A stretch of DNA of 64,000 nucleotides from Psychrobium sp. MM17-31. GTDB taxonomy: Bacteria > Pseudomonadota > Gammaproteobacteria > Enterobacterales > Psychrobiaceae. The notes under the pieces are model-generated. The model did no database searches. It was given only the letters and a program-made list of their open reading frames with translations, and was not told the origin of the DNA. The stretch is from the NCBI RefSeq assembly GCF_022347785.1, contig NZ_JAKRGA010000001.1:372001-436000 (forward strand), given 5' to 3'. Shown here piece after piece: positions 44,912 through 60,763 of this stretch. The position numbers and the translations under genes are program-made. Positions within the stretch are counted from its first letter, which is position 1. Every line of letters begins with the position of its first letter.

Positions 44912-45901
44912 ATGCGCATTTCTGAAATTCTCGAAAATCTGGATAATAGAATTTGTTGTTATTCTGATGAATTCGTTCATAAAATTATTGAATCGCAATC
45001 CCTTACCCATACGGGATGTAATATAGTTATCGATAAAAATCACAAACTCGTCGGGATAATTACCGATGGAGATATTCGTAGAGCCATAGCGAACCACACG
45101 AATATTAAAGTAGTGACCGTTAACGACATTATGAATAAATCTCCAAAATTCACCTATGCGTCTGCTCAGGTTTCTGATGTTTTCACCCAAATGACTGATT
45201 CAGAAATAAATCAATTACCGATAGTCGATGACACCAATAACGTTATAGGCTTAGTAAGTTATCACAACATAGCCAAATCTCTGTCGCCAGAGCAGCTATT
45301 TATCAATCTAGATAATCAGGATTTGTCAGACAACGAACTGAGGCATATGGCGCGATACAAATTCGCTAGAAGTTTTATAAAAGCAGATGATTTAGTACTC
45401 GACGGAGCTTGCGGCTCTGGTTACGGCAGCAAAATTTTGGCGGGTAAAAGTAAGAACATTATTGGTATAGACCTAAATGCTCGTTCAATTAATTATGCGA
45501 AAAAGAATTACGGCGACAGCGTAAAAGAATTTAACTGCTCAGATATCGAACAATTAAACTACGATAATAATAGCATAGATGTGGTCGTCAGCTTTGAGAC
45601 ACTGGAGCACATCCCTTATGATGTGTGCAGAAACTACTTAAAGAAGATTGGTGATTGGTTGAAACCTGGCGGTATATTGGTAGCGTCCTCTCCGATGTTA
45701 AGATTTAAAGATGGAGAGCCTTACGTTACCAATCCATATCATATTAATGAACTACCTAAAAATGAACTATTGAATCTATTTGACAGCACGCTGCCAAATT
45801 TCAATAAACATTATTACCATCAAAAAGAAACTGAGTTCTTACCGTTACAAACTGAACATACAGGTTTTTGTATAATTGTCGCCCGCAAGAATCAAGAGTA
45901 A
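44912..45901 (+). CDS. CBS-domain pair fused to SAM methyltransferase
   Basis: 329 residues. Residues 1-125 are a CBS pair (CBS1 ends CNIVIDKNHKLVGIITDGDI, CBS2 ends QLPIVDDTNNVIGLVSYHNI) like those fused to sugar nucleotidyltransferases and KpsF isomerases. Residues from about 150 are a class I methyltransferase: motif I LVLDGACGSGYGSKIL at 161-176, IIGIDLNARSINYAKKNY, and VVVSFETLEHIPYD. CBS pairs usually bind adenine nucleotides, so methylation may be gated by a nucleotide. I know no named family with this architecture. First gene of the AT-rich plus-strand cassette; AAGGTG lies 11 bases before the ATG. Confidence 0.8.
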   Translation: MRISEILENLDNRICCYSDEFVHKIIESQSLTHTGCNIVIDKNHKLVGIITDGDIRRAIANHTNIKVVTVNDIMNKSPKFTYASAQVSDVFTQMTDSEINQLPIVDDTNNVIGLVSYHNIAKSLSPEQLFINLDNQDLSDNELRHMARYKFARSFIKADDLVLDGACGSGYGSKILAGKSKNIIGIDLNARSINYAKKNYGDSVKEFNCSDIEQLNYDNNSIDVVVSFETLEHIPYDVCRNYLKKIGDWLKPGGILVASSPMLRFKDGEPYVTNPYHINELPKNELLNLFDSTLPNFNKHYYHQKETEFLPLQTEHTGFCIIVARKNQE

Positions 45902-45913
45902 TATTGAATCACT

Positions 45914-46786
45914 ATGCATCCAACTATTCTTAAAAATCTAAAACGTGTCGATAAACTAGTTAACGACAACATTTCCAAATTAGACAACGGTGCACCTGCA
46001 CCAAGTTGGATTGAGCTTAGCCCAATAGACACCTGTAATAGAAAGTGCACATTTTGTCCTAAATCTGATGACAGCATAGCTCCGGATCAACCATTTTTTA
46101 TGCAACCAGCACTTTATAAGAAGATAGCTAAAGAGTTAAGAGAAAGTAATTTCAAAGGCACGATAATGCTTGCTGGCTACGGTGAACCAATGTTGTCGCC
46201 AAAGATATACGATATGATTTCACTCTTTTCAGAATTCTGTAATGTTGAGATAACAACTAATGGTGACTTTCTCAATGATAAAACGCTGAAGAAACTAATT
46301 TCGAGTGGGATTGATAAAATTATTTTAAGCTTATATGACGGTCCTGAGCAACTGACTCAATTTAATAATCTATTTTCAGAAAATGAGATAAGCTCTGATA
46401 AATTTATTTTAAGAGATCGATGGTACAGCGAAGAAGAGGACTTTGGACTAAAACTGACCAATCGCGGTGGCACTATAAGTTTTGGTACCCCAATTGAGGT
46501 CGATGCATGTAAGCCATGTTACTACCCACATTATTCTATGATGGTGGATTGGAATGGTGACGTATTTCTCTGCCCTCAAGACTGGAATCGGCGTATAAGA
46601 ACTGGAAACTTGGCTTTTGATACAATTTTTGACGTGTGGGATTCGAAACAGTTAAAACGTTATAGACAATCCTTGGCAAAAGGGAATAGAAAACTTCCTC
46701 CCTGTAATAAATGCAATGCTGATGGCACTCTCCATGGCAAAGAACAAGAGCTCATTTGGCGTGAGTATTACGCACCTAAGAAGTAA
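45914..46786 (+). CDS. Radical SAM protein with SPASM-like C-terminus
   Basis: 290 residues. The iron-sulfur motif CNRKCTFC (Cys41, Cys45, Cys48) identifies a radical SAM enzyme; GYGEPMLSP and VEITTNGDFL are the following conserved strands. The C-terminal part has CKPCYYPHYSMMVDWNGDVFLC and PPCNKC, like a SPASM or twitch domain holding another cluster. Shorter than most SPASM proteins (350 or more): the middle of the barrel after QFNNLFSENE seems trimmed. 12 bases after the CBS-methyltransferase. Substrate unknown; such enzymes occur in aminosugar and glycan loci. Confidence 0.82.
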   Translation: MHPTILKNLKRVDKLVNDNISKLDNGAPAPSWIELSPIDTCNRKCTFCPKSDDSIAPDQPFFMQPALYKKIAKELRESNFKGTIMLAGYGEPMLSPKIYDMISLFSEFCNVEITTNGDFLNDKTLKKLISSGIDKIILSLYDGPEQLTQFNNLFSENEISSDKFILRDRWYSEEEDFGLKLTNRGGTISFGTPIEVDACKPCYYPHYSMMVDWNGDVFLCPQDWNRRIRTGNLAFDTIFDVWDSKQLKRYRQSLAKGNRKLPPCNKCNADGTLHGKEQELIWREYYAPKK

Positions 46787-46798
46787 AGGACTTTAAAA

Positions 46799-48061
46799 AT
46801 GAACAGTATCAACGTCCTCAATGAAGGTTACTCATCAGCTTTCAATGAAGTTGACTTTCACTGCACAAATGCCGATGGATCCAAGATTTTTGATGAAGAT
46901 AATAATGCTTATATCGACCTCTCAATGGGAGGAGGCTGTTGTTTATTAGGCCATCAGCCACCTTTTATAACAACGGCAATAACCCAACAGTTAATGCGTG
47001 GAAGCATTTACACAATTCCAAACAAATTAACGTACCAGTGTGCAGAGAATCTACACGCGATGATGCCATGGTATTCGGATTTTGTATTTTGTAGTACAGG
47101 CTCTGAAGCAACACTCAGAGCACTCAGAATTGCCCGCGCTTATAATAAAAAATCTAAAGTTGCTATGTTTAGTGGAAGTTGGCACGGTTCACATGATTTT
47201 CTTCTCTACGAAGAAGACTACGACAATGAATCTAATGAACCTTCATTGAAAAGAAAATCGTCGGGCATGCTCGACTCATTAGATGAGCACGTAGTTTTAT
47301 TACCTTACAATGATCCCTATGCTTTCGAAATATTAGACAAATTCAAAACCGAACTCTCACTAGTAATCATTGAACCTGTGCAAGGTTCGAATCCACAATC
47401 AAAAATCGATGAATTCTTAAATCAATTGAGAGAGTTTTGTACTCACAATAAAATTCTCCTATGTTTTGATGAAGTGATTACCGGTGCTCGTTTAGCTTTA
47501 GGCGGAGCACAAGAATACTTCAATATTAAGGCGGATCTTGCAACCTATGGAAAATCAATTGGAGGTGGGCTACCTTTAGGCATAGTCGCAGGCACACCAG
47601 AAGTAATGTCTACGATTAAGAGTACTCACTCACCCGTTTTTATGGGAGGGACATTTTCTGCAAACCCTTTATCTATGGCCGCGTGCTTAGCTACTACTTC
47701 TTATTTAATTAATAATAAGTATTGTTATCTTGAACTCGAACAATCATCAAATTATTTACGCTCTAGTATTAATGAATTCTGTATTAACCACTCAATTAAG
47801 GCAAAGCTCATAGGCATAGGATCATTCAATCGGCTCATATTCACCGATGTTTCTATACGAAGTCGAAAAGAACGAGATTTACTTGAATTAGAGTGGAGTG
47901 AACAAGCTGATTTTTTCTCACATCTAAGAAGGTTAGGCGTTTATATTGGTAGTAATAGAATTATATATCTATCTACTGCACACTCAGTCAATGACATTGA
48001 CAAAGTAATTTTGGCATTTGAAACAGCACTATCGTTATATCATTCAAAAGGTTTCATTTAG
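46799..48061 (+). CDS. Class III PLP aminotransferase (glutamate-1-semialdehyde aminomutase-like)
   Basis: 420 residues. Class III hallmarks: FCSTGSEATLRALRIARAY, LVIIEPVQGSNP, LLCFDEVITGARLALGG and the PLP Lys in LATYGKSIGGGLPLGIVAG. Similar proteins in glycan loci aminate sugar or short-chain aldehyde substrates; hemL for haem synthesis is expected elsewhere in the genome. 12 bases after the radical SAM gene. It could use the aldehyde made by the LuxC-like protein encoded opposite, but nothing in the sequence proves that. Confidence 0.83.
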   Translation: MNSINVLNEGYSSAFNEVDFHCTNADGSKIFDEDNNAYIDLSMGGGCCLLGHQPPFITTAITQQLMRGSIYTIPNKLTYQCAENLHAMMPWYSDFVFCSTGSEATLRALRIARAYNKKSKVAMFSGSWHGSHDFLLYEEDYDNESNEPSLKRKSSGMLDSLDEHVVLLPYNDPYAFEILDKFKTELSLVIIEPVQGSNPQSKIDEFLNQLREFCTHNKILLCFDEVITGARLALGGAQEYFNIKADLATYGKSIGGGLPLGIVAGTPEVMSTIKSTHSPVFMGGTFSANPLSMAACLATTSYLINNKYCYLELEQSSNYLRSSINEFCINHSIKAKLIGIGSFNRLIFTDVSIRSRKERDLLELEWSEQADFFSHLRRLGVYIGSNRIIYLSTAHSVNDIDKVILAFETALSLYHSKGFI

Positions 48062-48067
48062 ACATTT

Positions 48068-49054
48068 ATGGAACCAAGATTTAAAACGCCATTATTTAAA
48101 CGCTGTAGTCGGACATTATTTCGAATAATTAAACTACTATCTCCTGTATTTTCGATAGTTGTACTCAAAAAAAAGTTTCCTGCAAATAAACTAGCACCTG
48201 TTTTGTGGGATAACTTTTTAGCAGCCCTATTTAGTAAAGAAATTAATCTGCACTACGGTCAACAGTTTAAACAACTACCAAAATTTAATAATAAAGATAC
48301 CAATACTATATTTGTCCTTGGATGCGGACAAAGTGTCAATAACATAACGGCCGAACAATGGAATATTATTAGTAAACATCTAGGAATAGGTGTTAGTTAT
48401 TTTTTTGTCAATCAACACTACTCGCCAAATATTAATATAGTTGAACTCGGTGCTTCGGCAAACGCAGTTAAATTGTTTAACGATTATTGTTTAGACAAAA
48501 ATCAAAAACAAATAAACGTACTGCAAATAAGACACGTTGTTGATGCAAGTCAGCAGTTTCGAAACTCAAATAACCTATTTTACTTTAGTCCTAAAACATT
48601 ACCAACGAATGACAAAGAATTACTAGCGGCGTTTCACTTAAGATATGCTAAATCGAAACAATTAATTACAATGCATCATGCAAGCTGTTTAGATGCCGCA
48701 GTTACACTCGCAGCTCAATATAACCCTAAACAAATAGTTTTGATAGGCGTTGACCTCGACGGACTAGATTATTTCTGGGAAAACGGAAAAACACAAGCAG
48801 AGCGAGATGCGAAATACACTGTTCAAGAAGATTTAAAAAATCTGCCGTTTGATAAGAGCCAAGAAAAACTCCATCCTTCCATGAACGAAAAATATGCAAG
48901 CGATAGAAAAATTTTACCGCTGGACCAGTACCTTAACATTTTAAAAAATGTATACCTCAAGGAGAAAGGAATTGAACTATTAATAGCCAATCCTAACTCT
49001 AAACTTTGCGATAGAATAAACATCAAAACTTATGATTTTGGTAAGAAACGCTAA
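48068..49054 (+). CDS. Small Maf/DUF115-fold protein, probable glycosyltransferase
   Basis: 328 residues, not firmly recognised. It contains TIFVLGCGQSVNNITAEQW followed later by QIVLIGVDLDGLDYFWENG, mirroring the VLGGGPSLDD and VLLAGVDMCYG blocks of the large Maf protein at 58139-60634 and of Campylobacter-type sialyltransferases. That suggests a nonulosonic acid transferase or a relative. N-terminal 35 residues have a hydrophobic stretch (RIIKLLSPVFSIVVL). Last gene of the plus-strand cassette, 6 bases after the aminotransferase gene. Confidence 0.55.
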   Translation: MEPRFKTPLFKRCSRTLFRIIKLLSPVFSIVVLKKKFPANKLAPVLWDNFLAALFSKEINLHYGQQFKQLPKFNNKDTNTIFVLGCGQSVNNITAEQWNIISKHLGIGVSYFFVNQHYSPNINIVELGASANAVKLFNDYCLDKNQKQINVLQIRHVVDASQQFRNSNNLFYFSPKTLPTNDKELLAAFHLRYAKSKQLITMHHASCLDAAVTLAAQYNPKQIVLIGVDLDGLDYFWENGKTQAERDAKYTVQEDLKNLPFDKSQEKLHPSMNEKYASDRKILPLDQYLNILKNVYLKEKGIELLIANPNSKLCDRINIKTYDFGKKR

Positions 49055-49094
49055 AAACTTTTATATATAGTTTACTGTTGATAGGATTATTAAT

Positions 49095-49112
49095 GGGGCT
49101 TAAATAGCCTTG
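49095..49112. terminator. Weak hairpin between convergent genes
   Basis: GGGGCT-TAAAT-AGCCTT with a following TTTTA on the plus strand could terminate the plus cassette. The stem is only four to six pairs with wobbles. Confidence 0.3.
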
Positions 49113-49114
49113 TT

Positions 49115-50074
49115 TTATCGATAACTCATAATTTTTCGGCACATTTGTGGGCTGATTTGCAATAAAAAAATTCCCCAATACTTGAGTGGCATACTGAAAC
49201 GCCTTAGTTTTACAGCGCAACGAAGATTTTTTTTGAAGAGCTCTATGTTGTTAGCTCTTAAATAATAAAGACTCGCAGAGAAGTACTCTCCCGCGATCCC
49301 TTTTCTCAAGGATTGACTATCAACACTATGGCTCTCACTCATTATGTTTCTTGCCAAGATCATATCTATTTTGCACTGTTCACGTCTCTCAACGGAAAAC
49401 TTAGTTAACCCAGTACTGCCACTATCGCGAATCCGATAACAACTCAGTGGATATTTCAACACAATGCCGCGATTTGCAGACGCCATTAACTGCAGATTAC
49501 GCAAATAGTCGTCAATAACTCGAATCTCAGGACAGACAGAAACATTTTGAATTAAAGATGCGCGAAAGGATATTGAACTAGGTAGGATAAAACTCCCCAA
49601 TTCAATTAAATCTTCAAACCGAAATCCATCTTTAAATTTTCCAAAATGATAATGTTCGGAATAATGCTGCCCTGCTAATGGAATATCTTGCTCGTCAACT
49701 TTTGACAATTCACAGCACACCAAATCGATCTCACTATTAGCTTCTAATTCTGCTAACGTTCTCTCAATCCTGTTAGATAACATTAAATCATCGCCGTCTA
49801 AATGCACGACATAATCAGTATCAACTCTGCGATACAGATCAATAACATTTGCGGCAGTCCCCACATTTTGTTTTCTATAGACTACATCTAGATTCGAATA
49901 GCGTTGCTCCAATTGTTGTAGAATTTCACAGCTATTATCACTTGAACAATCGTCCCCGACGAGAACTTTAAATTTAAATCGAGTTTGTTGGGTAAGAGCG
50001 CTAAGAACCGCCTCTTCAATATATTCTTGTAAATTAAAACAAGTAATAACGACCGTGCATTTATATTTGCTCAC
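49115..50074 (-). CDS. Family 2 glycosyltransferase
   Basis: 319 residues from GTG 50074. GT-A fold: VVITCFNLQEYIEEAVLSAL, LVGDDCSSDNS, DTDYVVHLDGDDLM (the DxD). The frame is open to 50161, but that would overlap the previous gene by about 100 bases; GTG 50074 begins four residues before the first strand and overlaps by 14. Acceptor sugar unknown. Last gene of the minus-strand operon that starts at the large maf gene. It likely extends or decorates the flagellin glycan. Confidence 0.82.
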   Translation of the reverse strand: MSKYKCTVVITCFNLQEYIEEAVLSALTQQTRFKFKVLVGDDCSSDNSCEILQQLEQRYSNLDVVYRKQNVGTAANVIDLYRRVDTDYVVHLDGDDLMLSNRIERTLAELEANSEIDLVCCELSKVDEQDIPLAGQHYSEHYHFGKFKDGFRFEDLIELGSFILPSSISFRASLIQNVSVCPEIRVIDDYLRNLQLMASANRGIVLKYPLSCYRIRDSGSTGLTKFSVERREQCKIDMILARNIMSESHSVDSQSLRKGIAGEYFSASLYYLRANNIELFKKNLRCAVKLRRFSMPLKYWGIFLLQISPQMCRKIMSYR

Positions 50075-51083
50075 GCCAGAGTCGCTCCCCAATAAAACAA
50101 AATTGTCTATGCTCTTTGAAGTGAGCCAAATATACTTCCTTTCCGTAGTCCTCATCTTCACACTTCATACATGAATTTAAAAGTAATTCACGAAAAACCA
50201 AATACTCATCAGGTAAAGTTTCAAGCACAAATTTAATTTTTTCGCTGTATTGAGTGAGGACAGATAAATCGTCAATAGTTATCGTCGATTTATTAGACAC
50301 TCTTAAAAATTCAGTAACTAACGAGGTTGAAATATAACTAGCTTTCTCTTTACAAATATGGCTATTTATTAAAGCAGCTAATATCTTTGCCTTATCTTTT
50401 AATTGCTTTTCAGCATGGCTATGACAGATGGAATGATCATGAAGATTGTAATAGTAAAGAACCTCTGGCACATTTAAAAAGCTAATATCTCGGTTAAATA
50501 TCATTCTAGAGAACAATTCAAAATCTTCGACATAGTCTGCCGACAAGTTATATCGAAATTCTCGTAGTAACGAAGTAGATGTCATAATAGCCGCGTGACA
50601 TACAGGGGTTTTCCCTAGGAGTAACAAAATTTTTGAGAAATTGCTATCGACTCTATAGTGCCAAATAGCTTTGGATTTATTTGTCGTTTGAACCCAACTA
50701 CCGCAAATTGTTCTTTCGCTCTTTCCCTCTAACCAGGCGAGCTGCCGCTCAAATCGATTTGGAGCGACAATATCATCTGCGTCCATTCTTGCGACTAAAG
50801 GAGTCTCAACACAATCTATAAGTTCATTTAACGAACCTATCAGACCTTTATTTTTTCTACTAATTACCTTTATACGACTATCTTTTAATTGATATTCATT
50901 AATGATTTCTAATGTATTATCGATGGAGCCATCATTTAAAATCAAAAATACAAAGTTCCGATAAGATTGATTTAAAATACTTTCTATAGCTGCTGCGATG
51001 TACTCTTCAGCATTATAAGCAGGCATAATAACGGATAAAATCGGCTGGTGCTGATTGGATTCTGAAATATTAATGACTGACAC
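50061..51083 (-). CDS. Family 2 glycosyltransferase
   Basis: 340 residues. LSVIMPAYNAEEYIAAAIESIL, LILNDGSIDNTLEII and PLVARMDADDIVAPNRFERQ give the nucleotide-sugar fold and DxDD motif. Start GTG 51083 with GGAG eight bases upstream; it overlaps the LuxC-like gene by 14 bases. The C-terminal 110 residues are helical and unrecognised. Acceptor and donor unknown. Confidence 0.85.
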   Translation of the reverse strand: MSVINISESNQHQPILSVIMPAYNAEEYIAAAIESILNQSYRNFVFLILNDGSIDNTLEIINEYQLKDSRIKVISRKNKGLIGSLNELIDCVETPLVARMDADDIVAPNRFERQLAWLEGKSERTICGSWVQTTNKSKAIWHYRVDSNFSKILLLLGKTPVCHAAIMTSTSLLREFRYNLSADYVEDFELFSRMIFNRDISFLNVPEVLYYYNLHDHSICHSHAEKQLKDKAKILAALINSHICKEKASYISTSLVTEFLRVSNKSTITIDDLSVLTQYSEKIKFVLETLPDEYLVFRELLLNSCMKCEDEDYGKEVYLAHFKEHRQFCFIGERLWREQI

Positions 51084-52215
51084 AGAATTGCTCCAATAGA
51101 TTCATCCCATCCCAGTGATGAGAAAATTCATGCATTTTTTCCATCGGTACTAAACGACAAAAATCGAGATTTGTATACAAGGGTAAAACCTCATCTCGTT
51201 CCAATCCATAAAGCCCTAACGTTTGAAACTTATCATAATGACTAAACATCACCGTTCGAAACTCTTTCTCGTTACAGCTAATAAACAAGCCTTGACCACT
51301 ATGCATTTTCAATAACTGAGTTATTGAATTTATGGGAGATTCTACAATATTTAACCGATAAAATGGGTCCGAATAAATAGCCTGACTATCATTGGCAAAT
51401 GAAAAATCCAAACTCAGTTTTTTAGCAATAATATTAGAAACCGATAACGGTAACTCGATATCCGAATCTAAAACGGTACAAACTCTTTGTTTAGCCTGTG
51501 CGATATCATTTTCATCACCAAACCAAATGATCATCTTTGGAGAAGTACAAGCTTGTTGTTCGAAAGCTAGGCCTGTTCTTAATAGTTGCGAAACAAATCT
51601 CTCTGGAGCATTCTTAACCTTTAGTGCGCTAACCGCACATGCGGAATATTTGGTATGAAAATGAACATCATGAGCACCACTCTTTAACTTGGTTTTTGAT
51701 AATTTAGCAACTGTATCATCGCCTCCCCAAATAGCTCGAATGTCACAAAGTTCAGCCAATTCTAAATTGATACTCTCTTCATGTTTATAAGAGAAAAATA
51801 ACTGTCCCTTGCCTAATTCATTGAACTGCTGTGATTTAAAAAGAAGCTCTATATCTTTCAATAGTATTAGTGTTGTCGCTTGTGCACGTTGGGAAATTCT
51901 AACTAAGTTTTTATTCCCTAGTAGAAAAGAAAGAGCCCATGAATAGGCAAATATTGTGTCAACATTACTCGGTGCGATATGAAATACGGTGCCGGCTCTT
52001 TGAACCTGTTCAATACGAGAAAATTCTTCCTTCATTCTTTGTAGATTACTTTTTCGCAGCCAAAACCCTAATGCCGCAATCTCGCTATTATCACTTTTTA
52101 CCCATTTCCTTGAAAGTGCTATCAAAGCGCTCATGACATCCGTAGAAAATGCTTCGTGATAACTCGATAAATGTAATTGATTTATAATTGAACTATCAAA
52201 TGACTTAACCTTCAT
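51070..52215 (-). CDS. LuxC-like acyl-thioester reductase
   Basis: 381 residues from ATG 52215. The family motif GTVFHIAPSNVDTIFAYSWALSFLLGNKNLVRIS, IRAIWGGDDTV, and the nucleophile Cys in AFEQQACTSPKMIIW match LuxC-type reductases, which use NADPH to turn acyl-CoA, acyl-ACP or acyl-enzyme into aldehyde. The open frame extends to 52323, but ATG 52215 overlaps the LuxE-like gene by just 11 bases. No luciferase genes are near; the glycan setting suggests reduction of an acyl chain used for decoration. Confidence 0.82.
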   Translation of the reverse strand: MKVKSFDSSIINQLHLSSYHEAFSTDVMSALIALSRKWVKSDNSEIAALGFWLRKSNLQRMKEEFSRIEQVQRAGTVFHIAPSNVDTIFAYSWALSFLLGNKNLVRISQRAQATTLILLKDIELLFKSQQFNELGKGQLFFSYKHEESINLELAELCDIRAIWGGDDTVAKLSKTKLKSGAHDVHFHTKYSACAVSALKVKNAPERFVSQLLRTGLAFEQQACTSPKMIIWFGDENDIAQAKQRVCTVLDSDIELPLSVSNIIAKKLSLDFSFANDSQAIYSDPFYRLNIVESPINSITQLLKMHSGQGLFISCNEKEFRTVMFSHYDKFQTLGLYGLERDEVLPLYTNLDFCRLVPMEKMHEFSHHWDGMNLLEQFCVSH

Positions 52216-53281
52216 AGGTATTACTGCATCCCTTGTTTTGAGCGTTTTTAATGCGGCCATATACTTTAAAGTATCGACCGTTTTTCCCACAAGGACAGTC
52301 ATCTTCGCCCAATAATTTTCCAAGATCTTCAGTCAATAGATTATGACCTGGATAACTAAGTGGCAACATAGACATCACCTGAATTATTCCCTTTTCTAAT
52401 TTACCCAACACTCCTAACGTTTTCTGGCATCGAATAACCACATTATTAAAATTCGAGCAATGTAAGTGGCCATATTCGCATTCCACAAAAATAGAGCCAG
52501 TTTGTTCAACCATGCCATAAAAATTGTGCACTTTTACATAACCAAGCACGCTAGCTAATCGCCGCTTAAATTCGGAATCTGTCACCTTCTCTTGTTCTAG
52601 CTTTTTCCAGCCCCCTGAGTGCAATAACACTGCATCCATAAAATCAAAAGACACCCCCATTTTACCCAAAGCTGATGTAAAATAACGCCAAACCATAAAC
52701 GTAAAACCAAAAATTAACACGCGTTGGTGTTTATACTTTTCGTAAAACTGCTTAACAATATCTAAATTTAGTGACATATCCTCATTTAAGGCGTAGTGAT
52801 GGTCACGCCCCATTAACGCGACTCCTTGAACTCCAGCACCTCGCGCTGAAAATTCAAGTCGGTTTTTTATTAAATTTCGAGGTTCAATAATAAGCATTGG
52901 TAATCGCTTTATTGAAGTGAAAGGTTGAAGCGTTTTGACTAATGCCTTAGCTTGTAGTCTTGCTGTCATGCCATCAAGCTCAATACGCGATAAACTTGCC
53001 CCCGAAGTACCAGAGGACGTTAATGTTTTAATCTTATCCTCCGCTATAATCGAGCTCAAATTCATCGTCTTGAATAATTGACTACTAATATAAGGGTATG
53101 ATTCCAGAGAACTAGCTAAGGGACTTTGGCAAATATTAGCTATAATGTTGCCATATGGTGGACAGTGCTGCTTATGATGCTCATTTAAAAAGCGTAATTG
53201 TTCTGCTTGCCATTTGTTCTTGTCATTTGACCTAAGGCTATAAGGTTCCAATTCGAATAGTTCGTCTATATTATTCATCAT
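52205..53281 (-). CDS. LuxE-like acyl-protein synthetase
   Basis: 358 residues from ATG 53281. IKTLTSSGTSGASLSRIELD is the ATP-binding loop and VHNFYGMVEQTGSIFVEC the family's second block; a C-terminal CPCGKNGRYFKVYGRI ends it. LuxE proteins activate a carboxylic acid as acyl-AMP and move it to a cysteine, then to LuxC. Coupled to the AMP-ligase gene (11-base overlap) and to the LuxC-like gene (11-base overlap). The upstream GTG at 53287 is an alternative start. Confidence 0.82.
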   Translation of the reverse strand: MMNNIDELFELEPYSLRSNDKNKWQAEQLRFLNEHHKQHCPPYGNIIANICQSPLASSLESYPYISSQLFKTMNLSSIIAEDKIKTLTSSGTSGASLSRIELDGMTARLQAKALVKTLQPFTSIKRLPMLIIEPRNLIKNRLEFSARGAGVQGVALMGRDHHYALNEDMSLNLDIVKQFYEKYKHQRVLIFGFTFMVWRYFTSALGKMGVSFDFMDAVLLHSGGWKKLEQEKVTDSEFKRRLASVLGYVKVHNFYGMVEQTGSIFVECEYGHLHCSNFNNVVIRCQKTLGVLGKLEKGIIQVMSMLPLSYPGHNLLTEDLGKLLGEDDCPCGKNGRYFKVYGRIKNAQNKGCSNTYEG

Positions 53282-54644
53282 AAGCACGCTCTATACATTG
53301 ATAGTCAATCTTTCCCGACGAAGTTCGAGGCCATTCTTGCAATTGAATAAAACGAACATGAGTATGAAATACATTTACTTCAGAGCGTAATAGTTTCAAT
53401 ATATCTTGCTGTGATACTTGCGATTTTATTGCGATAATTAGCCTTCCAGCAGATTCGCCGACTTTAACATCGAATTCATTCTGATTTAGTAATTCTTCAA
53501 TACCATCTAGGTCGACTCGTTGATGTGATACTTTGCAAAAACGATTACTCCGCCCAGTGATATAAAAATATCCTTCATCATCAAAATACCCTAAATCACC
53601 TGTATTAAGCTCTTCAATATGAGGAAAATAAGCTAAATCAGTAACTTCAGTTGAGTATCCCAACATTACGTTAGGGCCTTTGTAACAAATTTCGCCGATG
53701 ATAAAAGGGTCTTGTATGAGCGCATTATTTGAATCTCTAACCACCAAACGACCATTAGGAATTGCCTGTCCAACACTATTTTTCTTTTCAAAAACTTTAT
53801 CAGAGGATAGACAGCTTATTCTTGCGGTAGCCTCTGTCTGCCCATACATTTTAAAAAAGGATAAATCATTTCTCTCTGCCCACTCACAGAGGTAGTCGCA
53901 CATTTCCTCAGGAAGTCGCCCTCCCGCCTGAGTAACTACCTTTAATTTGGGAAGCGTTTTCGAGGCAATACGAAGTCGTTTAAATATTTCAAAATGAAAA
54001 GGAACTCCTGAAATACTAGTGATATTGCTACGACTCATTAATTCCCAGAATTGAGAAGTTAGTGGTGACGAAACTGTTAACTGTACAGATGCGCCGGAAA
54101 TCAGATAAGAATTGAGTATCGATAAACCAAAAGAATAATGTAAAGGAAGATTAGTTATAGTCCGACTATTTTTATCAATCTTTAGCACTAGGCTAATAGA
54201 TTCTGCATTGCTAAGAATATTGTCATAGGATAAAGCAACAAACTTTGACGACCCTGTAGAGCCCGATGTACTAAGTAAGAGAGCGAGATTATCCGCTAGA
54301 ATATGCCTTTGACTAGAGATTTCCTTCAACACGCCGTCATAAATATAATTGACACAATATGAATTCGCTATGTTCAAACATTTTGAATCATCCATATTTG
54401 CGTCAATCAATAACATTACATGATTGTGTTTGAGGCAAAAGAGATACAGTGAAATAGCGCGCAAATCACATGTAATTTTGAATAATATTAAGCACCTAAT
54501 ACGGCCAAGTTTCGACTCCCATCTCTCTATCTCCAGTGCTAAGTCTTTATATGTAATCTGATTTCCACTTTCCTCTATTAGAGCAATATCAGGGAAGTTG
54601 TTCGAAGAAATAAATGGAAAACTAGTTCGCATTACAGTGACCAT
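53271..54644 (-). CDS. AMP-dependent acyl/aminoacyl ligase
   Basis: 457 residues. ANL family: P-loop LLLSTSGSTGSSKFVALSY, FKMYGQTEATARIS, ELNTGDLGYFDDEGYFYITG and the catalytic Lys in TSSGKIDY. It should adenylate a carboxylic acid and load it on the ACP encoded two genes upstream. Start ambiguous: ATG 54644 has GGAGG directly against it; ATG 54632 (TAATG junction with the SDR stop) has it 12 bases away. No integral carrier domain. Confidence 0.86.
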   Translation of the reverse strand: MVTVMRTSFPFISSNNFPDIALIEESGNQITYKDLALEIERWESKLGRIRCLILFKITCDLRAISLYLFCLKHNHVMLLIDANMDDSKCLNIANSYCVNYIYDGVLKEISSQRHILADNLALLLSTSGSTGSSKFVALSYDNILSNAESISLVLKIDKNSRTITNLPLHYSFGLSILNSYLISGASVQLTVSSPLTSQFWELMSRSNITSISGVPFHFEIFKRLRIASKTLPKLKVVTQAGGRLPEEMCDYLCEWAERNDLSFFKMYGQTEATARISCLSSDKVFEKKNSVGQAIPNGRLVVRDSNNALIQDPFIIGEICYKGPNVMLGYSTEVTDLAYFPHIEELNTGDLGYFDDEGYFYITGRSNRFCKVSHQRVDLDGIEELLNQNEFDVKVGESAGRLIIAIKSQVSQQDILKLLRSEVNVFHTHVRFIQLQEWPRTSSGKIDYQCIERAYDE

Positions 54645-55375
54645 CCTCCGTCAATTTTTAACACCTCTCCCGTCACAAAACGACTCTCATTACTCAGTAA
54701 ATAAGCGCATGCTTGTGCCACATCTTTTGGGGAAATTAGTTTGCCCAGTGGAATTTCACTTTCAGTTTTCTCTTTTATCTCTTCCGACAGTTGCGCATAA
54801 AGCTGAGTATCAACTGCACCAGGTGCGACTGCATTTACCCTCACATTATAAGTCGCTAATTCAAGTGCCATGGTTTTAGTAATTGACTCCACTGCTGCTT
54901 TCGTTGCGCTGTAAATTAACTGCCCTTTGACTGCATTAGTTGCTAAAATAGAACTCATATTCACTATACTACCGCCCTTTTTAGACATTAATCTGCTTGC
55001 AAACTGACTCATAGAAACGATTGAATACACGTTGGTCGAAAAATTGTCTTCAAAAGTTTCTCTATTCACTAGCTGAAGTGGCGCTTGAGACATAACACCA
55101 GCATTATTAACTAATCCAGTCAGCCCCCCTGCTTTTTTCAGCCTGATAAAAACCTCTTTAATCGCCAACTGCTCATTAACATCAAAACACTCAATAGAAA
55201 TATTCGAAGAATAATGACGCAACTCTTCCAATCTCTGAATATTTCTACCGCAAGCTATCACTGATGCTCCCAAATCAGCCACTAGTTTTGCGATTTCTCT
55301 GCCAATTCCTTCACTAGCACCTGTAATTAGAATTCGTTGTCCAATCAAACTAATCAATTGAAAACCCAATTCCAT
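54632..55375 (-). CDS. Short-chain dehydrogenase/reductase (FabG-like)
   Basis: 247 residues. Rossmann motif RILITGASEGIGREIA, NNAG, catalytic Ser in IVNMSSILAT and YSATKAAVESITKTMALELA (YxxxK). Closest in type to 3-oxoacyl-ACP reductases, C-terminus FVTGEVLKIDGGWSL. It overlaps the acp gene by 26 bases. It probably reduces the carrier-bound acyl intermediate. Confidence 0.86.
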   Translation of the reverse strand: MELGFQLISLIGQRILITGASEGIGREIAKLVADLGASVIACGRNIQRLEELRHYSSNISIECFDVNEQLAIKEVFIRLKKAGGLTGLVNNAGVMSQAPLQLVNRETFEDNFSTNVYSIVSMSQFASRLMSKKGGSIVNMSSILATNAVKGQLIYSATKAAVESITKTMALELATYNVRVNAVAPGAVDTQLYAQLSEEIKEKTESEIPLGKLISPKDVAQACAYLLSNESRFVTGEVLKIDGGWSL

Positions 55376-55601
55376 ATTTAATTAAAATTTCTCTAGACTT
55401 ACCAACACTATTCATATCGATAATGTCATCCGTATCCAGCATCACATCAAATTCATCCTCTAGTTCCGCAATTAACGTCATATGTGCAGTGGAATCCCAC
55501 TGCTCAATTGAGTTATACATCAATCCATCATTCACTAGATGTTCGTCAATGTTTAATGCGCTTGAAAAAACCTGAACTAGTTTTTTATTGTTAATACTCA
55601 T
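55350..55601 (-). CDS. Acyl carrier protein
   Basis: 83 residues, acidic, four-helix pattern. The phosphopantetheine Ser is in EQWDSTAHMTLIAELEDEF (DST instead of the usual DSL, as in many specialised carriers). It overlaps pseH by 4 bases (ATGA), directly tying the acyl module to pseudaminic acid synthesis. Not the housekeeping fatty acid ACP, which differs in the DSLDTVE motif. Confidence 0.85.
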   Translation of the reverse strand: MSINNKKLVQVFSSALNIDEHLVNDGLMYNSIEQWDSTAHMTLIAELEDEFDVMLDTDDIIDMNSVGKSREILIKYGIGFSID

Positions 55602-56122
55602 CGAATAAACCTTATGATTTTCTTTTTTTCTCTTTCATAATTAGAACTTGATAACTGCATGTAAACTATTCCAGCATCAATATGACTAACTTCATATCCA
55701 AATAGCCTGTTATAACGCAACGCTGCATTATTTTCCTCAAGGACTTGTGCAAAAACTCGATCGACATTTAGAACATTGAAACAATAATCCAATAAAGCAA
55801 GACCTAAACACTGGGCCAGAAAAGTTCCCCTGTATTGGGCGTCTCCAATATACAAACCAGTGTTTAATTTATTTGTATCTCTAAGCTGTTTTACATTGGC
55901 ATATCCAACACAATTCCCCTTGTAATCAACACTAAAATGAATTTCATCTACCTTTCTATCAAGAGACGAAAACCAATCAAGTTGTTGTTGTTCTGAAATA
56001 ACTGACTGATCGAGCATGAAACTTCGAATTTCATCGCTATTACGCCACTTTCGAAGTTTATTTAGGTCGGCTATTTCTATTGGCCGTAACGTCATTTTAT
56101 AAGCAGTGTAACTTTTTTGCAT
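55598..56122 (-). CDS. pseH: GNAT N-acyltransferase, PseH type
   Basis: 174 residues. LRPIEIADLNKLRKWRNSDEIRSFM and GLYIGDAQYRGTFLAQCLGLALLDYCF are PseH/GNAT blocks. PseH acetylates N4 of UDP-4-amino-4,6-dideoxy-AltNAc. It starts on the base after the pseG stop, with GAGGG upstream, and overlaps the acp gene. Because the next gene encodes an ACP, it may accept an acyl group other than acetyl; that is inference. Confidence 0.85.
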   Translation of the reverse strand: MQKSYTAYKMTLRPIEIADLNKLRKWRNSDEIRSFMLDQSVISEQQQLDWFSSLDRKVDEIHFSVDYKGNCVGYANVKQLRDTNKLNTGLYIGDAQYRGTFLAQCLGLALLDYCFNVLNVDRVFAQVLEENNAALRYNRLFGYEVSHIDAGIVYMQLSSSNYEREKKKIIRFIR

Positions 56123-57079
56123 TTAACCCTCTTTCTTCATGAGGTAATCATAAATACATTGCGCAACTCTCTTTGCACCATTTCCATCAACAATATTACA
56201 AAGACCATCAATATTAGATTCCATTTTATCAACAGCTTCAATCCAACAAACAATATTATTAAGTAAGTCAATATCCTCTTTACTACCTGATTCAAAATAA
56301 CCTGTTTGCTTAAGAACCGTCATAGCTGGACGCTGATTACTCGCAATTTCAATCATATAGCTAGGAACCCCCATGTAAGCTAACTCAAACACTGTTCCAC
56401 CGCCAGCAGTAATTGCACTTTTGGCGCACGCCATTAACGTTTCTATATTCCCGACGTTTTCGTAAACTTTAATACCATTTCGCTCACAAAAGCTAAGGAT
56501 GAATTCTTTATCTTGACAGCCTGGACCAATCACGACATCTAAACGACATGATATTGTAGGAAATTGGGATAAATGTTGACAAATAGGTAACGTCAATCCG
56601 CCAAAATCACTTCCTCCCATAACGAGTAATATTCTATTTCGGCGACTATATTCATTACGACAAGCATGCTTAAATTGTTGCCTCAGTATCGCATAGTCAA
56701 AGCCAAGTAAACATTTTTGAAAGTTTATCCGCTCATAATCATTTCTATCGATCGGGTTCACGACTGCTGTGGCTTTAAAAATACCTCGATTATTTTCGTC
56801 ATCTAATACCACAGTAGGCACACGGGAAAAATAATAATTAAGCTGCGCGGAATCTTCGCTATAACTATCAACGATAAGAAGCTCAGTAGATATTGGTAAT
56901 GTGTCATCAATTCTATAATCAATGACTCGGTAATGATGAGAAATATCAAGATCAATAGCACCCCATAAAGTCACTGAAAATCTAAATTTCTCTAATTGCT
57001 CCGCAATTGCCAAACAGCGAATGAGATGGCCAGCACCAGTTGTAACTGTTGCATCAACTCTAATAACAATGGATTTCAT
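56123..57079 (-). CDS. pseG: UDP-sugar hydrolase PseG
   Basis: 318 residues from ATG 57079 (MKSIVIRVDATVTTGAGHLIRCL, with the family's GxGHxxR motif; the upstream GTG or TTG frame to 57115 is unlikely). It has LLVMGGSDFGG and AITAGGGTVFELAYMGVPS, glycosyltransferase-B-like blocks. It removes UDP from UDP-2,4-diacetamido-2,4,6-trideoxy-altrose before PseI. One base separates it from the pseI stop. Confidence 0.93.
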   Translation of the reverse strand: MKSIVIRVDATVTTGAGHLIRCLAIAEQLEKFRFSVTLWGAIDLDISHHYRVIDYRIDDTLPISTELLIVDSYSEDSAQLNYYFSRVPTVVLDDENNRGIFKATAVVNPIDRNDYERINFQKCLLGFDYAILRQQFKHACRNEYSRRNRILLVMGGSDFGGLTLPICQHLSQFPTISCRLDVVIGPGCQDKEFILSFCERNGIKVYENVGNIETLMACAKSAITAGGGTVFELAYMGVPSYMIEIASNQRPAMTVLKQTGYFESGSKEDIDLLNNIVCWIEAVDKMESNIDGLCNIVDGNGAKRVAQCIYDYLMKKEG

Positions 57080-57080
57080 A

Positions 57081-58130
57081 TCAAACAATATGTTCCCATT
57101 GTATTGATTGACCATACATTAAATCCGATTTAGCGGCTTTACCAATGACGTTATCCAAATACTTAGGTTCCAATCCATTCGCAGGACGCAGTACAGATAC
57201 ATGATCTTTAGTGATGATCTCGCCTTTCTTCAAATTCTTTGTCACATAGATTGACCTTCTGTACCTCTTAGAATCACGTTCGGATTCACTACCACCATAG
57301 ACAATTTCTCCCATGGCTTGATAGCTATTCTTCAATTCTTGAACGAGTAGTTGAAACTCTTTAGGTTCTAGCGAAAATTCAGCATCTACTCCACCGGCCC
57401 GTCTATCGAGTACAAAATGTTTTTCAATAACCTTCGCGCCAATAGCACTAGCGCTTATAGCCACACCAATTCCCTTAGTGTGATCCGATAACCCAACTTC
57501 ACAACCAAAAGCGGATTTCATATGTGCAATAGTGTTTAGATTTGAATCCTGCGGTTTTGCTGGGTATGCGCTGGTACACTTTAGTAGCAGTATTTTCTCG
57601 CAACCATAATCTCTAAGGCAGCGTACAGCTTCCTCAATCTCAGATAATGTAGCCATTCCCGTTGATAAAATCACCGGCTTACCTGTCTTAGCAACATGTT
57701 TTAGCAAAGGTAAATCTGTGCATTCAAAGGAGGCGATTTTATAACACGGAACATTTAATGACTCTAAAAAATCGACCGATGTCTTATCAAATGGTGAGCT
57801 AAATGCATACAAACCTAGTTCTCTAGCTCGAGAGAATATCTCTTCATGCCATTCCCAAGGGGTAGCCGCACGCTGGTATAATGCAAATAGTGACTCTCCT
57901 TGCCACAAATTATCATGTTCTTTAATCACAAAACGGTCTAGTTCACAGTCCAGCGTCATTGTTTCGGCTTTATAAGTCTGCAATTTTATTGCGTCAACCC
58001 CTGCATTAGCAGCCTCTTCAACCATTTGTAACGCAGTATCCAAACACTGATTGTGATTGCCTGATAATTCTGCGATAACAAAGGGGCTGGCACTATTATC
58101 CAGCTCAAAAACGGATTCTAATTTATTCAT
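57081..58130 (-). CDS. pseI: Pseudaminic acid synthase PseI
   Basis: 349 residues, NeuB-like TIM barrel plus C-terminal SAF (antifreeze-like) domain. FVIAELSGNHNQCLDTAL, AIKLQTYKAETMTLD, CYKIASFECTDLPLL, LSDHTKGIGVAISA and RSIYVTKNLKKGEIIT are typical. It condenses the hexose with phosphoenolpyruvate to give pseudaminic acid. The PseI-type AIKLQTY (not NeuB) agrees with the neighbouring pse genes. Start is 8 bases after the maf stop. Confidence 0.94.
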   Translation of the reverse strand: MNKLESVFELDNSASPFVIAELSGNHNQCLDTALQMVEEAANAGVDAIKLQTYKAETMTLDCELDRFVIKEHDNLWQGESLFALYQRAATPWEWHEEIFSRARELGLYAFSSPFDKTSVDFLESLNVPCYKIASFECTDLPLLKHVAKTGKPVILSTGMATLSEIEEAVRCLRDYGCEKILLLKCTSAYPAKPQDSNLNTIAHMKSAFGCEVGLSDHTKGIGVAISASAIGAKVIEKHFVLDRRAGGVDAEFSLEPKEFQLLVQELKNSYQAMGEIVYGGSESERDSKRYRRSIYVTKNLKKGEIITKDHVSVLRPANGLEPKYLDNVIGKAAKSDLMYGQSIQWEHIV

Positions 58131-58138
58131 TCTATTTA

Positions 58139-60634
58139 CTACTTAGTTGCTTCACTACCAACGTGTTGTTCAAGCTTTTGTACCATCTCTGTAGCGATGC
58201 GATGCTCGGAATCTAAAGACAGAACAAACTGAAACGCCATTAGCGCACTTTCAAAAGCCGCGATATCAATAAGAATGCTGCCAAGCTCTAACCAGCCATC
58301 AATGTCCTGTTTAAAAACCTCAAGATACGTTGAATAAGCATCCACAGCTTCATCTTTTAATCCATGATGAGCTAGTAATTGCCCATATAAACGATTTAAT
58401 CCAAGGTTGTTAGTGACTAATGAGTTTAGAAGTTGCATTGCTTTTTCATATTGCTCACAAGCAACCAATACATCTACAAACTGTTCCCGATCCCATTGAG
58501 AAAGCACTGACTCATCAGCACATTCAAATAATTCTGCAGCCTGACTATATTTACTATCCCAAAAGGCACCGTGTGCCAATGCCAGATTTTTAAGATTTTT
58601 AACTTTGATAGGATCTTCTTTTGATCTTGACAAAAACTCAATCACGGCAGTTAATCCTTCTCGATCTTTGTTTTTAGCAAGCTCACGAATCTTATTATCG
58701 ACTCCCTCTAATCCATGCTTTAATTGCGCATACGCATCGACAATGCTTTGATCATATTCTTGATGCTGCTCTTTCATCGCAACTAATCCGTTACGTTCGT
58801 CAGGACTTAATTCTCTATCTCGCTTTAGCAATAGAACTTCTGCCACTCTATATTCGTCGTGCTGACAAAAGTAATCAGTTACTAACTCAACATTCATTGG
58901 TTTCTTGTACGCGTGAATTGCCACTTCAATTCGTTCTCGTGCTGGATTTAATAATGTTTTTAATTGTTTAACGCCATTAACGTAAGCTTGATAATAATTG
59001 ATATTACGCTGTGCTAAATCTTGATTAGATAGAGAGGACGCACTTCCGCCGATTAAAATTTTAGCAAAGTCTTTAAATGCTAATGTTTTAAGAAGCTTAT
59101 CCAAGTAACCAAAGGACTGCTTTATTTTCCGTTCAACTTTTTCTATTTTTTTACGATGAACAATGGATTGCTTTTCGCTAGTATTTTCTAAATAAGCTAT
59201 GTTTGTCGCATCAATCGCTTCTTTTGCTAAAGAATCTATTACATTCAAATCCTTCGAAACCTTGATAAACTCACTATTTAATTGATTCAAATCTCGTCTT
59301 ATATCATTTGTTGAAACACTAGGAATTAAGCATCCAATGGTTTCTTTCGGCGAAAATTCAAAATTAGCCAAATCAAATTCTGAAGTATGTTTATATTCAA
59401 CAAAATCTAACTTAAGTGCATTTTTAGAAAGATTATAGACATTAACCCCTTTGTCTTTCGCGTATTTAGCATGTTTTGACAAGTAATTAGCGGTCAAAAT
59501 TAGAGGAATTATCGTTTCCGCTTTATGGCCAGCGTAAGTCTCGAGCCATTGGCTTTCCCTGCTTATATCAATTTCTCTCTCAGACTCAAAGCTGCCACTT
59601 GCGTGTGTCGATCCATCTGTGCCATAGCACATATCGACCCCAGCTAGTAAAACCTCAGCACATCCCATATCTACTGCTGCAATCAATGCTGCGTTTACCA
59701 CTGTAGGTCCTTCGGTAAAATGAGGTTCTGGGTTCAGTTTACTATCCCATGGAACACGATTTCCAAGATAAGCACTCCTCCCCTTCCACTGAGACATTAA
59801 CCTTGGAATAACGTGATAAGAAGTCAAGAATGTCACATTGGAGGGAAAGTTATAGAGCTCTTTACTCACGTTATAGCTAATTTGTTGAGGGTCAAGCGCA
59901 ATTACGATATCCGGCACTAAGCCTACTTCTTGAAGTTTTCGACTTATTCTCGAAACAGCAATAATCAAAAGTTTATCTTTGTTCTCAGTAACCCACGGTA
60001 AGCAATCGTCAAGCGAGGGCCCACCACCCAATACAATACATGTTTTAGATTCGAACGCCCCGTTGAGCAGTTGAGCTGAGTTGAAGTTAAACGGAGCGTT
60101 CTTTAATTGACACTCTATAAACTCGCGATTTCCAAGCGCTGCACTATTCTCATATACCTTATTTCTATAAATAAAGTTTAATCGCAGTTTTAATTGATGA
60201 TAAAGCTCACTTCTTCCAGCTCTAATTGCACTGCTATAATGAAGCAGTACCGCTTCATTATAGAAATATGCTGCGGCGGTTTCGTGATCAAATCCTTGCT
60301 CCCATTCTTCCGCCGTGCAGAACTTTAAAACCTGTTGCCACTCGTCATTCAACTCAGGACGAATAAGCTCAATATACTCAGAACATTCAACAAACAAATA
60401 AACAGAGTTTTTCGGGATCCCTTCATTGACGATATGCTCAATCAATAAGCCAGAATCTGTGCCTGCCACAACGTGATAGCTATCTTCCTTCCAGAAGTTT
60501 TCAGATAACAGTTGGTTATAGTGCTCTTTAGCACTTTGATTAGCGAATGTGTCGCCATTAATCGAATACAAAAATTGATTTCCAAATTCATTCGACAAAA
60601 TTGGTTCGTCAATGACAGTTTGTTGCGATGACAT
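58139..60634 (-). CDS. maf: Maf-type flagellin glycosyltransferase with TPR tail
   Basis: 831 residues, longer than most Maf proteins. DUF115 core: CIVLGGGPSLDDCLPWVTEN near residue 204, VPDIVIALDPQ, and EVLLAGVDMCYG. The C-terminal 200 residues (AHGAFWDSKYSQAAELFEC, LGLNRLYGQLLAHHGLKDEAVDAYSTYL) look like TPR repeats. Maf proteins attach CMP-linked pseudaminic acid to flagellin Ser/Thr. It heads the minus-strand operon with pseI, pseG, pseH and the acyl module. A GTCAATAAAAA half-site is 20 bases upstream of its ATG. Confidence 0.9.
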   Translation of the reverse strand: MSSQQTVIDEPILSNEFGNQFLYSINGDTFANQSAKEHYNQLLSENFWKEDSYHVVAGTDSGLLIEHIVNEGIPKNSVYLFVECSEYIELIRPELNDEWQQVLKFCTAEEWEQGFDHETAAAYFYNEAVLLHYSSAIRAGRSELYHQLKLRLNFIYRNKVYENSAALGNREFIECQLKNAPFNFNSAQLLNGAFESKTCIVLGGGPSLDDCLPWVTENKDKLLIIAVSRISRKLQEVGLVPDIVIALDPQQISYNVSKELYNFPSNVTFLTSYHVIPRLMSQWKGRSAYLGNRVPWDSKLNPEPHFTEGPTVVNAALIAAVDMGCAEVLLAGVDMCYGTDGSTHASGSFESEREIDISRESQWLETYAGHKAETIIPLILTANYLSKHAKYAKDKGVNVYNLSKNALKLDFVEYKHTSEFDLANFEFSPKETIGCLIPSVSTNDIRRDLNQLNSEFIKVSKDLNVIDSLAKEAIDATNIAYLENTSEKQSIVHRKKIEKVERKIKQSFGYLDKLLKTLAFKDFAKILIGGSASSLSNQDLAQRNINYYQAYVNGVKQLKTLLNPARERIEVAIHAYKKPMNVELVTDYFCQHDEYRVAEVLLLKRDRELSPDERNGLVAMKEQHQEYDQSIVDAYAQLKHGLEGVDNKIRELAKNKDREGLTAVIEFLSRSKEDPIKVKNLKNLALAHGAFWDSKYSQAAELFECADESVLSQWDREQFVDVLVACEQYEKAMQLLNSLVTNNLGLNRLYGQLLAHHGLKDEAVDAYSTYLEVFKQDIDGWLELGSILIDIAAFESALMAFQFVLSLDSEHRIATEMVQKLEQHVGSEATK

Positions 60635-60763
60635 AGCAATCCCTAAATTAAATCGTCAATAAAAAGAGCATACGCCTTTTATGCACAATTGATACCTATT
60701 TAGCCCTTTAAGATTATCGATGATTTCTGTTTGCACTTTAATTGAACAGTAACTAATTGCATC

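Follow-up and report, generated by a model that had tools for sequence, protein, structure and literature searches.

An acyl module within a pseudaminic acid locus

We analysed a stretch of 64,000 nucleotides of Psychrobium sp. MM17-31 (contig NZ_JAKRGA010000001.1, positions 372,001 to 436,000; hereafter the window), which carries a pseudaminic acid locus with adjoining flagellar genes. In this locus, pseH is followed on the minus strand by consecutive genes for an acyl carrier protein (ACP), a short-chain dehydrogenase/reductase (SDR), an AMP-forming ligase (AMP-ligase), LuxE and LuxC, all placed between maf, pseI and pseG on one side and two GT2 glycosyltransferase genes on the other (Table 1). 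We call the five genes from ACP to LuxC the module. A sequence-only reading of the window had listed them as consecutive, and Pfam backs this listing, with the ACP just below its cut-off. The overlaps it described between neighbours measure 4-26 nt if LuxC starts at 52215; with the listed start at 52323 LuxE and LuxC would share 119 nt, and we regard the internal ATG at 52215 as the likelier start. The pseH/ACP overlap is ATGA, as had been read. The same reading had noted the absence of a luciferase: we likewise found none among the neighbouring proteins scanned, the rest of the genome not having been searched, and no LuxD was seen beside the module.

Table 1. Features of the pseudaminic acid locus and its surroundings (positions within the window)
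Feature	Position	Strand	Basis or remark
LuxC-like acyl reductase (aldehyde-dehydrogenase fold)	51070-52215	-	PF05893; listed open reading frame start 52323
LuxE-like acyl-protein synthetase	52205-53287	-	PF04443
AMP-forming acyl ligase, predicted ACP loader	53271-54644	-	PF00501
SDR reductase, FabG/glucose-1-dehydrogenase-like	54632-55375	-	PF13561
Dedicated ACP	55350-55601	-	PP-binding, D-S motif
PseH-like GNAT, module-specific clade, predicted module acyltransferase	55598-56122	-	TIGR03585 76.6 bits, tree, AlphaFold
PseG-like UDP-sugar hydrolase	56123-57115	-	TIGR03590 138 bits, below cut-off 153.55
PseI, pseudaminic acid synthase	57081-58130	-	TIGR03586 490.6 bits, above cut-off
Maf-type flagellin glycosyltransferase	58139-60634	-	PF01973 140.8 bits; PseD-like 46.8 bits, below cut-off
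GT2 glycosyltransferase, overlaps luxC	50061-51083	-	PF00535 115.9 bits
Second GT2 glycosyltransferase	49115-50161	-	relative of the glycosyltransferase just downstream of luxC in Aeromonas enteropelogenes (Fgi-1 position)
pseB, pseC, pseF	40918-43738	+	pseB reading frame: Polysacc_synt_2 332.4 bits
FliS	60905-61306		82.9 bits, above cut-off
FliD-like	61684-63087		below cut-off or cut by window end
FlaG-like	63121-63543		below cut-off or cut by window end
Flagellin 3' end	63731-63964		below cut-off or cut by window end

LuxC (PF05893, 69.6 bits, cut-off 21) and LuxE (PF04443, 153.3 bits, cut-off 24.9) belong to their Pfam families, and the AMP-ligase (PF00501, 116.3 bits, cut-off 29.9) and the SDR (PF13561, 203.4 bits, cut-off 27) score equally clearly above theirs; every NCBIfam match of the SDR lies below its cut-off. 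ACP, PseH and PseG remain under their curated cut-offs, the ACP match being weak (PP-binding, 19.9 bits, cut-off 20.8) and PseH falling short of the 93.1 bits set for the TIGR03585 equivalog. The window protein is PseH-like by fold and place, and we do not file it as an acetyl-PseH equivalog. In the alignments, the catalytic residues are kept: the LuxC cysteine in 108/108 sequences and also in luminescent LuxC, the acyl cysteine near the C-terminus of LuxE in 109/109, aligned with that of luminescent LuxE, the AMP-ligase lysine in 108/108, the serine of the ACP D-S motif in 98/98 and the active-site tyrosine and lysine of the SDR in 73/73 (the SDR serine only in 36/73 as aligned). The AlphaFold model of LuxC (confidence score pLDDT 89.8) has its best PDB match by fold in 7xc6_A, the LuxC of a LuxC-LuxE complex, while a sequence search of the PDB gave nothing at 0.01. 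Solved relatives of the AMP-ligase include oxalate-CoA and 2-succinylbenzoate-CoA ligases.

We named pseC and pseF after their translations and after relatives that phmmer matched in other pse loci. The stretch between pseF and the remainder of the island holds genes for a PhyH-type dioxygenase (43735-44796, minus strand) and a CBS-domain/methyltransferase fusion (44912-45901, plus strand). From 44 kb on, G+C drops from about 44% to 35-39% (44000-64000, island and flagellar genes), which is island-like. Promoter-like sites (30 versus 41.1 after shuffling) and terminator-like sites (8 versus 6.4) were not used as evidence. The genome holds one LuxE match and two LuxC matches, the second a 21-bit match on another contig, and none of the 8 other genomes of the genus searched (3 of them only 80-88% complete) gave a LuxE match.

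Distribution and kinship of the module

Within the order, 60 of the 394 genomes contain PF04443 matches. Leaving matches of up to 31 bits unfetched, we obtained 51 LuxE regions, which comprise 38 module loci, 2 fused LuxE-LuxC cassettes, 3 luminescent LuxE (705-726 bits, equivalog cut-off 550) and 8 other LuxE kinds (fetched loci are labelled L, genomes G). By score thresholds, AMP-ligase and LuxC are present at all 38 module loci, ACP at 37, SDR at 33, PseH at 31, at least two pse genes at 29 and transketolase at 3. Since adjacency is maintained across these loci (PseH-ACP in 29 of 31 same-strand pairs, AMP-ligase-LuxE in 31/36, LuxE-LuxC in 35/38), the grouping is not due to chance. When one genome per species was scanned, LuxE relatives were confirmed at no fewer than 557 places. 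The 80 named loci listed among them span Bacillota, Spirochaetota and proteobacteria and include Marinomonas, Rheinheimera, Aliidiomarina, Aeromonas enteropelogenes, Shewanella, Kosakonia, Roseburia, Treponema and Helicobacter. The sequence-only reading had pointed to similar gene sets in Shewanella flagellar loci, which holds in part: Shewanella sp. NIFS-20-20 (L109) has the module, while the sfm cluster of S. oneidensis MR-1 is a different gene set, and identity with it was rejected.

The sequence-only reading had stated in advance that a module found widely without pse neighbours would refute its interpretation. Formally, this is the case: 60 of the 80 named loci (18 of the 80 being shorter than 15 kb) lack at least two pse genes and 20 have them, and a fixed tie of the module to pse genes was rejected. 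A role in pse loci is not refuted by this, because, with the order and named sets combined, loose score limits place another aminotransferase or N-acyltransferase in 35 of the 50 non-pse loci of at least 15 kb, the remaining 15 having neither. The core therefore has the look of an acyl cassette of general use, with the pse type as one of its forms. Non-pse loci often contain VioA-like or other aminotransferases, hexapeptide acyltransferases and a split transketolase; the latter accompanies the module at L039, L084, L090, L126, L148 and others, often together with VioA and a hexapeptide acyltransferase. Transketolase occurs in 26/50 non-pse versus 2/44 pse loci of at least 15 kb (Fisher p 2e-7, not corrected for phylogeny). 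The AMP-ligase and LuxE are fused at L042 (9438-12071, 877 amino acids, by Pfam) and L051 (7670-10477, 935 amino acids, by length and score).

Profiles of the module proteins place them apart from luminescence. The LuxE profile gave 297-299 bits with fused LuxE-LuxC proteins and 83-92 with luminescent LuxE, the LuxC profile 127-130 and 65-86 bits, respectively. The window LuxE scores 41.4 bits against the luminescent equivalog (cut-off 550), and the window LuxC has no NCBIfam match at 0.001. By this profile evidence, LuxE and LuxC of the module are far nearer to the fused protein of a cassette of ACP, AMP-ligase and iron alcohol dehydrogenase than to their luminescent namesakes. With the luminescence LuxCDE (complex 7xc6) the module shares the families, the LuxC fold and the catalytic cysteines, but it adds an ACP and an AMP-ligase and scores low against the luminescent equivalogs; given these scores and the lack of luxAB among the neighbouring proteins scanned, it does not classify as a bioluminescence lux system.

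The fused cassette (ACP, AMP-ligase, iron alcohol dehydrogenase and an 825-amino-acid LuxE-LuxC protein) was found at L079 and L080, the fused protein of L079 scoring 595 bits for LuxE and 429 for LuxC. Three further genomes from the genus of L080 have the four genes in the same order, and a search with the fused protein in 196 genomes of the genus of G369 gave 4 matches. Its neighbours at L080, L279, L280 and L281 are NeuB- and PseF-like (nonulosonic acid type), with a PseC-like gene at L279 as well. We take the rfbK-L-M-N layout of Vibrio cholerae O1 to match this cassette. Like the tetronate-type cassette (RfbK-O-like, VC0248-VC0252), the window has ACP, AMP-ligase, LuxE, LuxC and a dehydrogenase beside an amino-sugar pathway. 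However, LuxE and LuxC are separate in the window and accompanied by an SDR, whereas L079, L080 and L279-L281 have fusions of 825-827 amino acids and an iron alcohol dehydrogenase; no PseH was seen in these cassettes, where NeuB-, PseC- or PseF-like genes adjoin, while the window has one; and the V. cholerae O1 sugar is perosamine, whereas the window holds a pseudaminic acid locus. Because LuxE and LuxC are separate and an SDR replaces the iron enzyme, we do not file the module as a tetronate-type member but only as working alike. A passage of PMC12208996 reports that RfbL of V. cholerae activates 2,4-dihydroxybutanoic acid.

PseH as the probable partner of the module

PseI exceeds its cut-off in 140 of the 394 genomes of the order. 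For comparison with module loci, 80 PseI loci were fetched from genomes without LuxE at that place, most of which did not contribute a PseH row under the score limit applied. The resulting PseH tree has 78 rows, of which 48 come from module loci, 11 lie next to an RfbL-like ligase but have no LuxE, 18 have neither and 1 is from G058. We excluded L078 and L225 because of their length, and L109 and L150 because they duplicate L059 and L067. The corresponding labels (lux, amp and none) were set mechanically by distance and score, such that L234 is labelled 'none' despite a nearby RfbL-like gene and SDR genes, and L254 'amp' despite a LuxC-like match of 61 bits.

A single branch (support 100/99, length 1.68) separates 44 of the 48 module PseH and the G058 row from all 29 others. 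The module label changes 5 times on the tree, compared to a mean of 24.2 after shuffling (0 of 500 shuffles were as low). Both kinds of PseH occur within families f1, f6, f7, f10 and f25 and are still separate in the tree, and pseH therefore appears, on this phylogenetic evidence, to be exchanged along with the module. In G058 (L255/L274 and L057), a module-type PseH and an AMP-ligase lie at the pse locus and LuxE, LuxC, ACP and SDR about 60 kb away.

Residues were mapped by eye through an alignment of L199 to the solved Helicobacter pylori PseH, for which passages of PMC4363471 describe the acetyl-contact and coenzyme A (CoA) loop residues. The G-x-G of the CoA pyrophosphate loop is present in 1/48 module PseH versus 10/18 and 7/11 of the other two groups. 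At the position of Leu91, 41/48 module PseH have P, T, A or S, while 24/29 others have W or L; the Glu126 equivalent is E in 20/29 others and Q, T, K or L in 36/48 module PseH. The changed sites include two acetyl-touching residues and the CoA pyrophosphate loop. The AlphaFold model of the window PseH (pLDDT 95.0) is nearest to PseH 4ri1 (Z 21.7, root-mean-square deviation 1.6, 161 residues aligned), tied within 1 with FdhC 5ktc (Z 21.2, deviation 2.2, 171 aligned), a structure seen with CoA and a 3-hydroxybutanoylamino-sugar. Given the separate clade, the altered acyl and CoA-loop sites and the structural neighbours, it is likely that the module PseH takes its acyl group from a carrier protein.

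A second acyl cassette, which combines a PseH from another clade with a nearby RfbL-like AMP-ligase and SDR but lacks LuxE, was seen in 11 of the 80 fetched PseI loci (L240 at 5740-9594, L201, L230, L237, L247, L251, L254, L259, L260, L266 and L273), with an ACP in 4 of the 11; L254 carries its LuxC-like match despite being of this type. L240 belongs to G007, a sister genome of the same genus. Its maf scores 1231 bits to the window maf and adjoins pseG, a PseH of another clade, ACP, ligase, SDR and pseI, and no LuxE or LuxC was seen there. Since a different cassette stands beside a related maf, members of the genus appear to exchange acyl cassettes at loci of this kind.

Flagellin masses and the proposed pathway

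The gene set itself is already known. Passages of PMC7874193 describe it in the same order in Group II flagellin islands of Aeromonas (98 strains), where it is called fatty-acid synthesis and a 'liposugar' is suggested; enterobacterial flagellin islands with Acp/LuxE/LuxC/CaiC/FabG are likewise called fatty acid synthesis in a part of PMC4875605, and a passage of PMC7575072 gives aldH-luxE-fadD-tktAB-fabG-acpP near the flagellin genes of Dickeya zeae. No deletion of a module gene is reported in the passages on these gene sets, and term searches of PMC9290775 and PMC7371886 gave nothing on the module. What the analysis adds is a specific candidate for the product, one for the acyltransferase, and clear tests. 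No paper of the open-licence literature searched combines dihydroxybutanoyl with pseudaminic acid, and among the papers listed there we found none that places it on flagellin.

The window shares with Aeromonas Group II (AH-3, A. hydrophila ATCC 7966 and A. enteropelogenes L150) the order pseH-ACP-SDR-AMP-ligase-luxE-luxC-GT2 in a pse/maf locus with maf near pseI. The relationship to the L150 proteins is distant, with identities of 49% for LuxE, 33% over 200 amino acids for LuxC and 29% for PseH. The two differ in that the window has pseB, pseC and pseF on the opposite strand and two GT2 genes after luxC; compared to the L150 glycosyltransferase (12405-13358), the second is 30.6% identical over 281 amino acids and the first, adjoining luxC, 29.0% over 100. 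The enterobacterial islands and D. zeae share with the window a core made up of ACP, ligase, LuxE and LuxC in the vicinity of flagellin genes, but D. zeae has vioA and transketolase genes where the window has pse genes and PseH.

For A. piscicola AH-3 (Group II), passages of PMC7874193 report a derivative of pseudaminic acid with a mass of 376.14 Da, along with a 102 Da moiety of unknown nature. Adding one C4H6O3 acyl group to pseudaminic acid that retains a single N-acetyl yields a residue mass of 376.148, whereas a second acyl group of another kind gives 316.127 (acetyl), 360.153 (hydroxybutanoyl), 374.133 (succinyl), 390.127 (malyl) or 428.252 (decanoyl). The 102 Da moiety fits the same C4H6O3 acyl, in which case the total for the reported 1491 Da glycan comes to 1491.49. 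AH-1, the small-island example of that paper, carries a single 403 Da sugar, which has an unsettled formula and is no test of this acyl idea.

From what is directly observed (the genes and their conservation, the PseH clade with its residue changes, the kinship to the fused cassette and the mass arithmetic), we propose that the five genes and pseH form a dedicated N-acylation cassette. In this scheme, LuxE would activate a small (di)carboxylic acid, with malate as the likeliest candidate, at one of its carboxyls and hand it to the LuxC cysteine; LuxC would reduce the bound acid with NADPH to the aldehyde and the SDR the aldehyde to the alcohol; and the AMP-ligase would charge the dedicated ACP with the acid, either ahead of the reduction or afterwards. 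PseH would then use ACP rather than CoA as its donor and transfer the dihydroxybutanoyl-type group, in place of acetyl, to the 4-amino group of UDP-4-amino-4,6-dideoxy-AltNAc, and the acylated nitrogen would become N7 of pseudaminic acid. PseG, PseI and PseF would yield CMP-Pse5Ac7(dihydroxybutanoyl), Maf would place the modified sugar on flagellin, and the GT2 enzymes may extend the glycan. The sequence-only reading had suggested a reduced or hydroxylated short acyl group passed to the sugar by PseH, and the PseH clade, the residues, the mass fit and the tetronate-type kinship favour this direction of mechanism; its pointer to Shewanella held in part, the module genes are, formally, widespread without pse neighbours, and the gene set was in print (PMC7874193).

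Three other explanations were weighed. The best of them, which we judge unlikely, has LuxE and LuxC serving a different reduction and another small acyl group, namely 3- or 4-hydroxybutanoyl or O-methylglyceroyl, being attached. Transfer of hydroxybutanoyl to a nucleotide sugar is known for FdhC, other acyl cassettes do exist in pse loci, as the RfbL-like ligase and SDR near PseH in 11/80 loci without LuxE illustrate, and O-methylglyceroyl is isobaric with dihydroxybutanoyl; but hydroxybutanoyl does not yield the AH-3 mass, the conserved core has no methyltransferase, and a glycerate-derived acyl would leave LuxE and LuxC without need. It is more improbable still that PseH goes on acetylating while the acyl group is attached to another sugar of the glycan, as the terminal 102 Da moiety. 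AH-3 does have this separate moiety, and elsewhere the module stands beside VioA and hexapeptide acyltransferases; on the other hand, the kind of PseH changes where the module is present, and a deletion of fgi-1 leaves the 376 Da sugar alone according to passages of PMC7874193, which places the extra mass on pseudaminic acid itself. The liposugar reading, in which the module supplies a fatty aldehyde or acyl group of long chain, prompted by the LuxC/LuxE/FabG/ACP family names and suggested in the passages on Aeromonas Group II and, by label, on the enterobacterial islands, was rejected as very improbable, as one decanoyl group would bring the AH-3 sugar to 428.25 instead of 376.14 Da and the module's LuxE and LuxC, with their poor luminescent scores, are closer to the tetronate-type fusion.

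Several points weigh against dihydroxybutanoylation by the module and PseH. We infer the substrate, the order of steps, the acyl identity and the ACP as donor from enzymes known here by their sequences. In V. cholerae, RfbM would be the iron alcohol dehydrogenase, RfbN the LuxE-LuxC protein and malate the start of the pathway. Four of the 48 module PseH fall outside the main clade (L101 as a weak sister; L112, L130 and L146 outside). The loss of G-x-G is not proof of an ACP donor, because 12 of the 29 other PseH also lack it, and in H. pylori PseH itself the acetyl contact is made by Leu rather than Trp. The same sugar mass would also arise with O-methylglyceroyl, with glycolyl together with hydroxybutanoyl or with further combinations, and the mass data are from another genus, Aeromonas, and not from the organism of the window. 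No SDR was seen in 4 of the 29 pse-type loci of the order set, which weakens its standing as an obligatory part, nor in 1 of the 20 of the named set; either another reductase serves there or the product differs. Finally, many non-pse modules come with a transketolase, so the acyl group made by the core is not the same throughout; one acyl for all modules is weakened by this distribution, and the product of transketolase-bearing modules probably differs.

Weighing these points, we hold it probable that PseH transfers a short hydroxylated acyl group. We lean, if only slightly, towards the full statement that the module makes a dihydroxybutanoyl-type acyl-ACP which PseH puts on the future N7, and we somewhat favour dihydroxybutanoyl as the group present in A. 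piscicola AH-3; for the organism of the window the same identity is a nearly even call that we keep tentative. A wider statement is offered as a possibility that we rather doubt: an as yet unnamed ACP/AMP-ligase/LuxE/LuxC cassette of several phyla may decorate surface amino sugars with small reduced acids and be re-targeted by swapping SDR, iron alcohol dehydrogenase or transketolase and the acyltransferase. In flagellar loci, a PseH class of its own that depends on acyl-ACP would accompany the cassette, and its dihydroxybutanoyl product would account for the 376 and 102 Da groups seen in Aeromonas flagellin. On this wider view, the LuxC/LuxE pair of luminescence would represent a single specialised offshoot within a family devoted to decorating sugars.

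With the proposed pathway, a specific and testable identity would be at hand for unexplained mass groups of Aeromonas flagellin, and the 'liposugar' guess would give way to a short-acid pathway with one step per gene. The proposal predicts a class of PseH that draws its acyl group from a carrier protein. With LuxE relatives at no fewer than 557 places, and with Bacillota, Spirochaetota and proteobacteria among the named ones, the answer would bear on many surface sugars.

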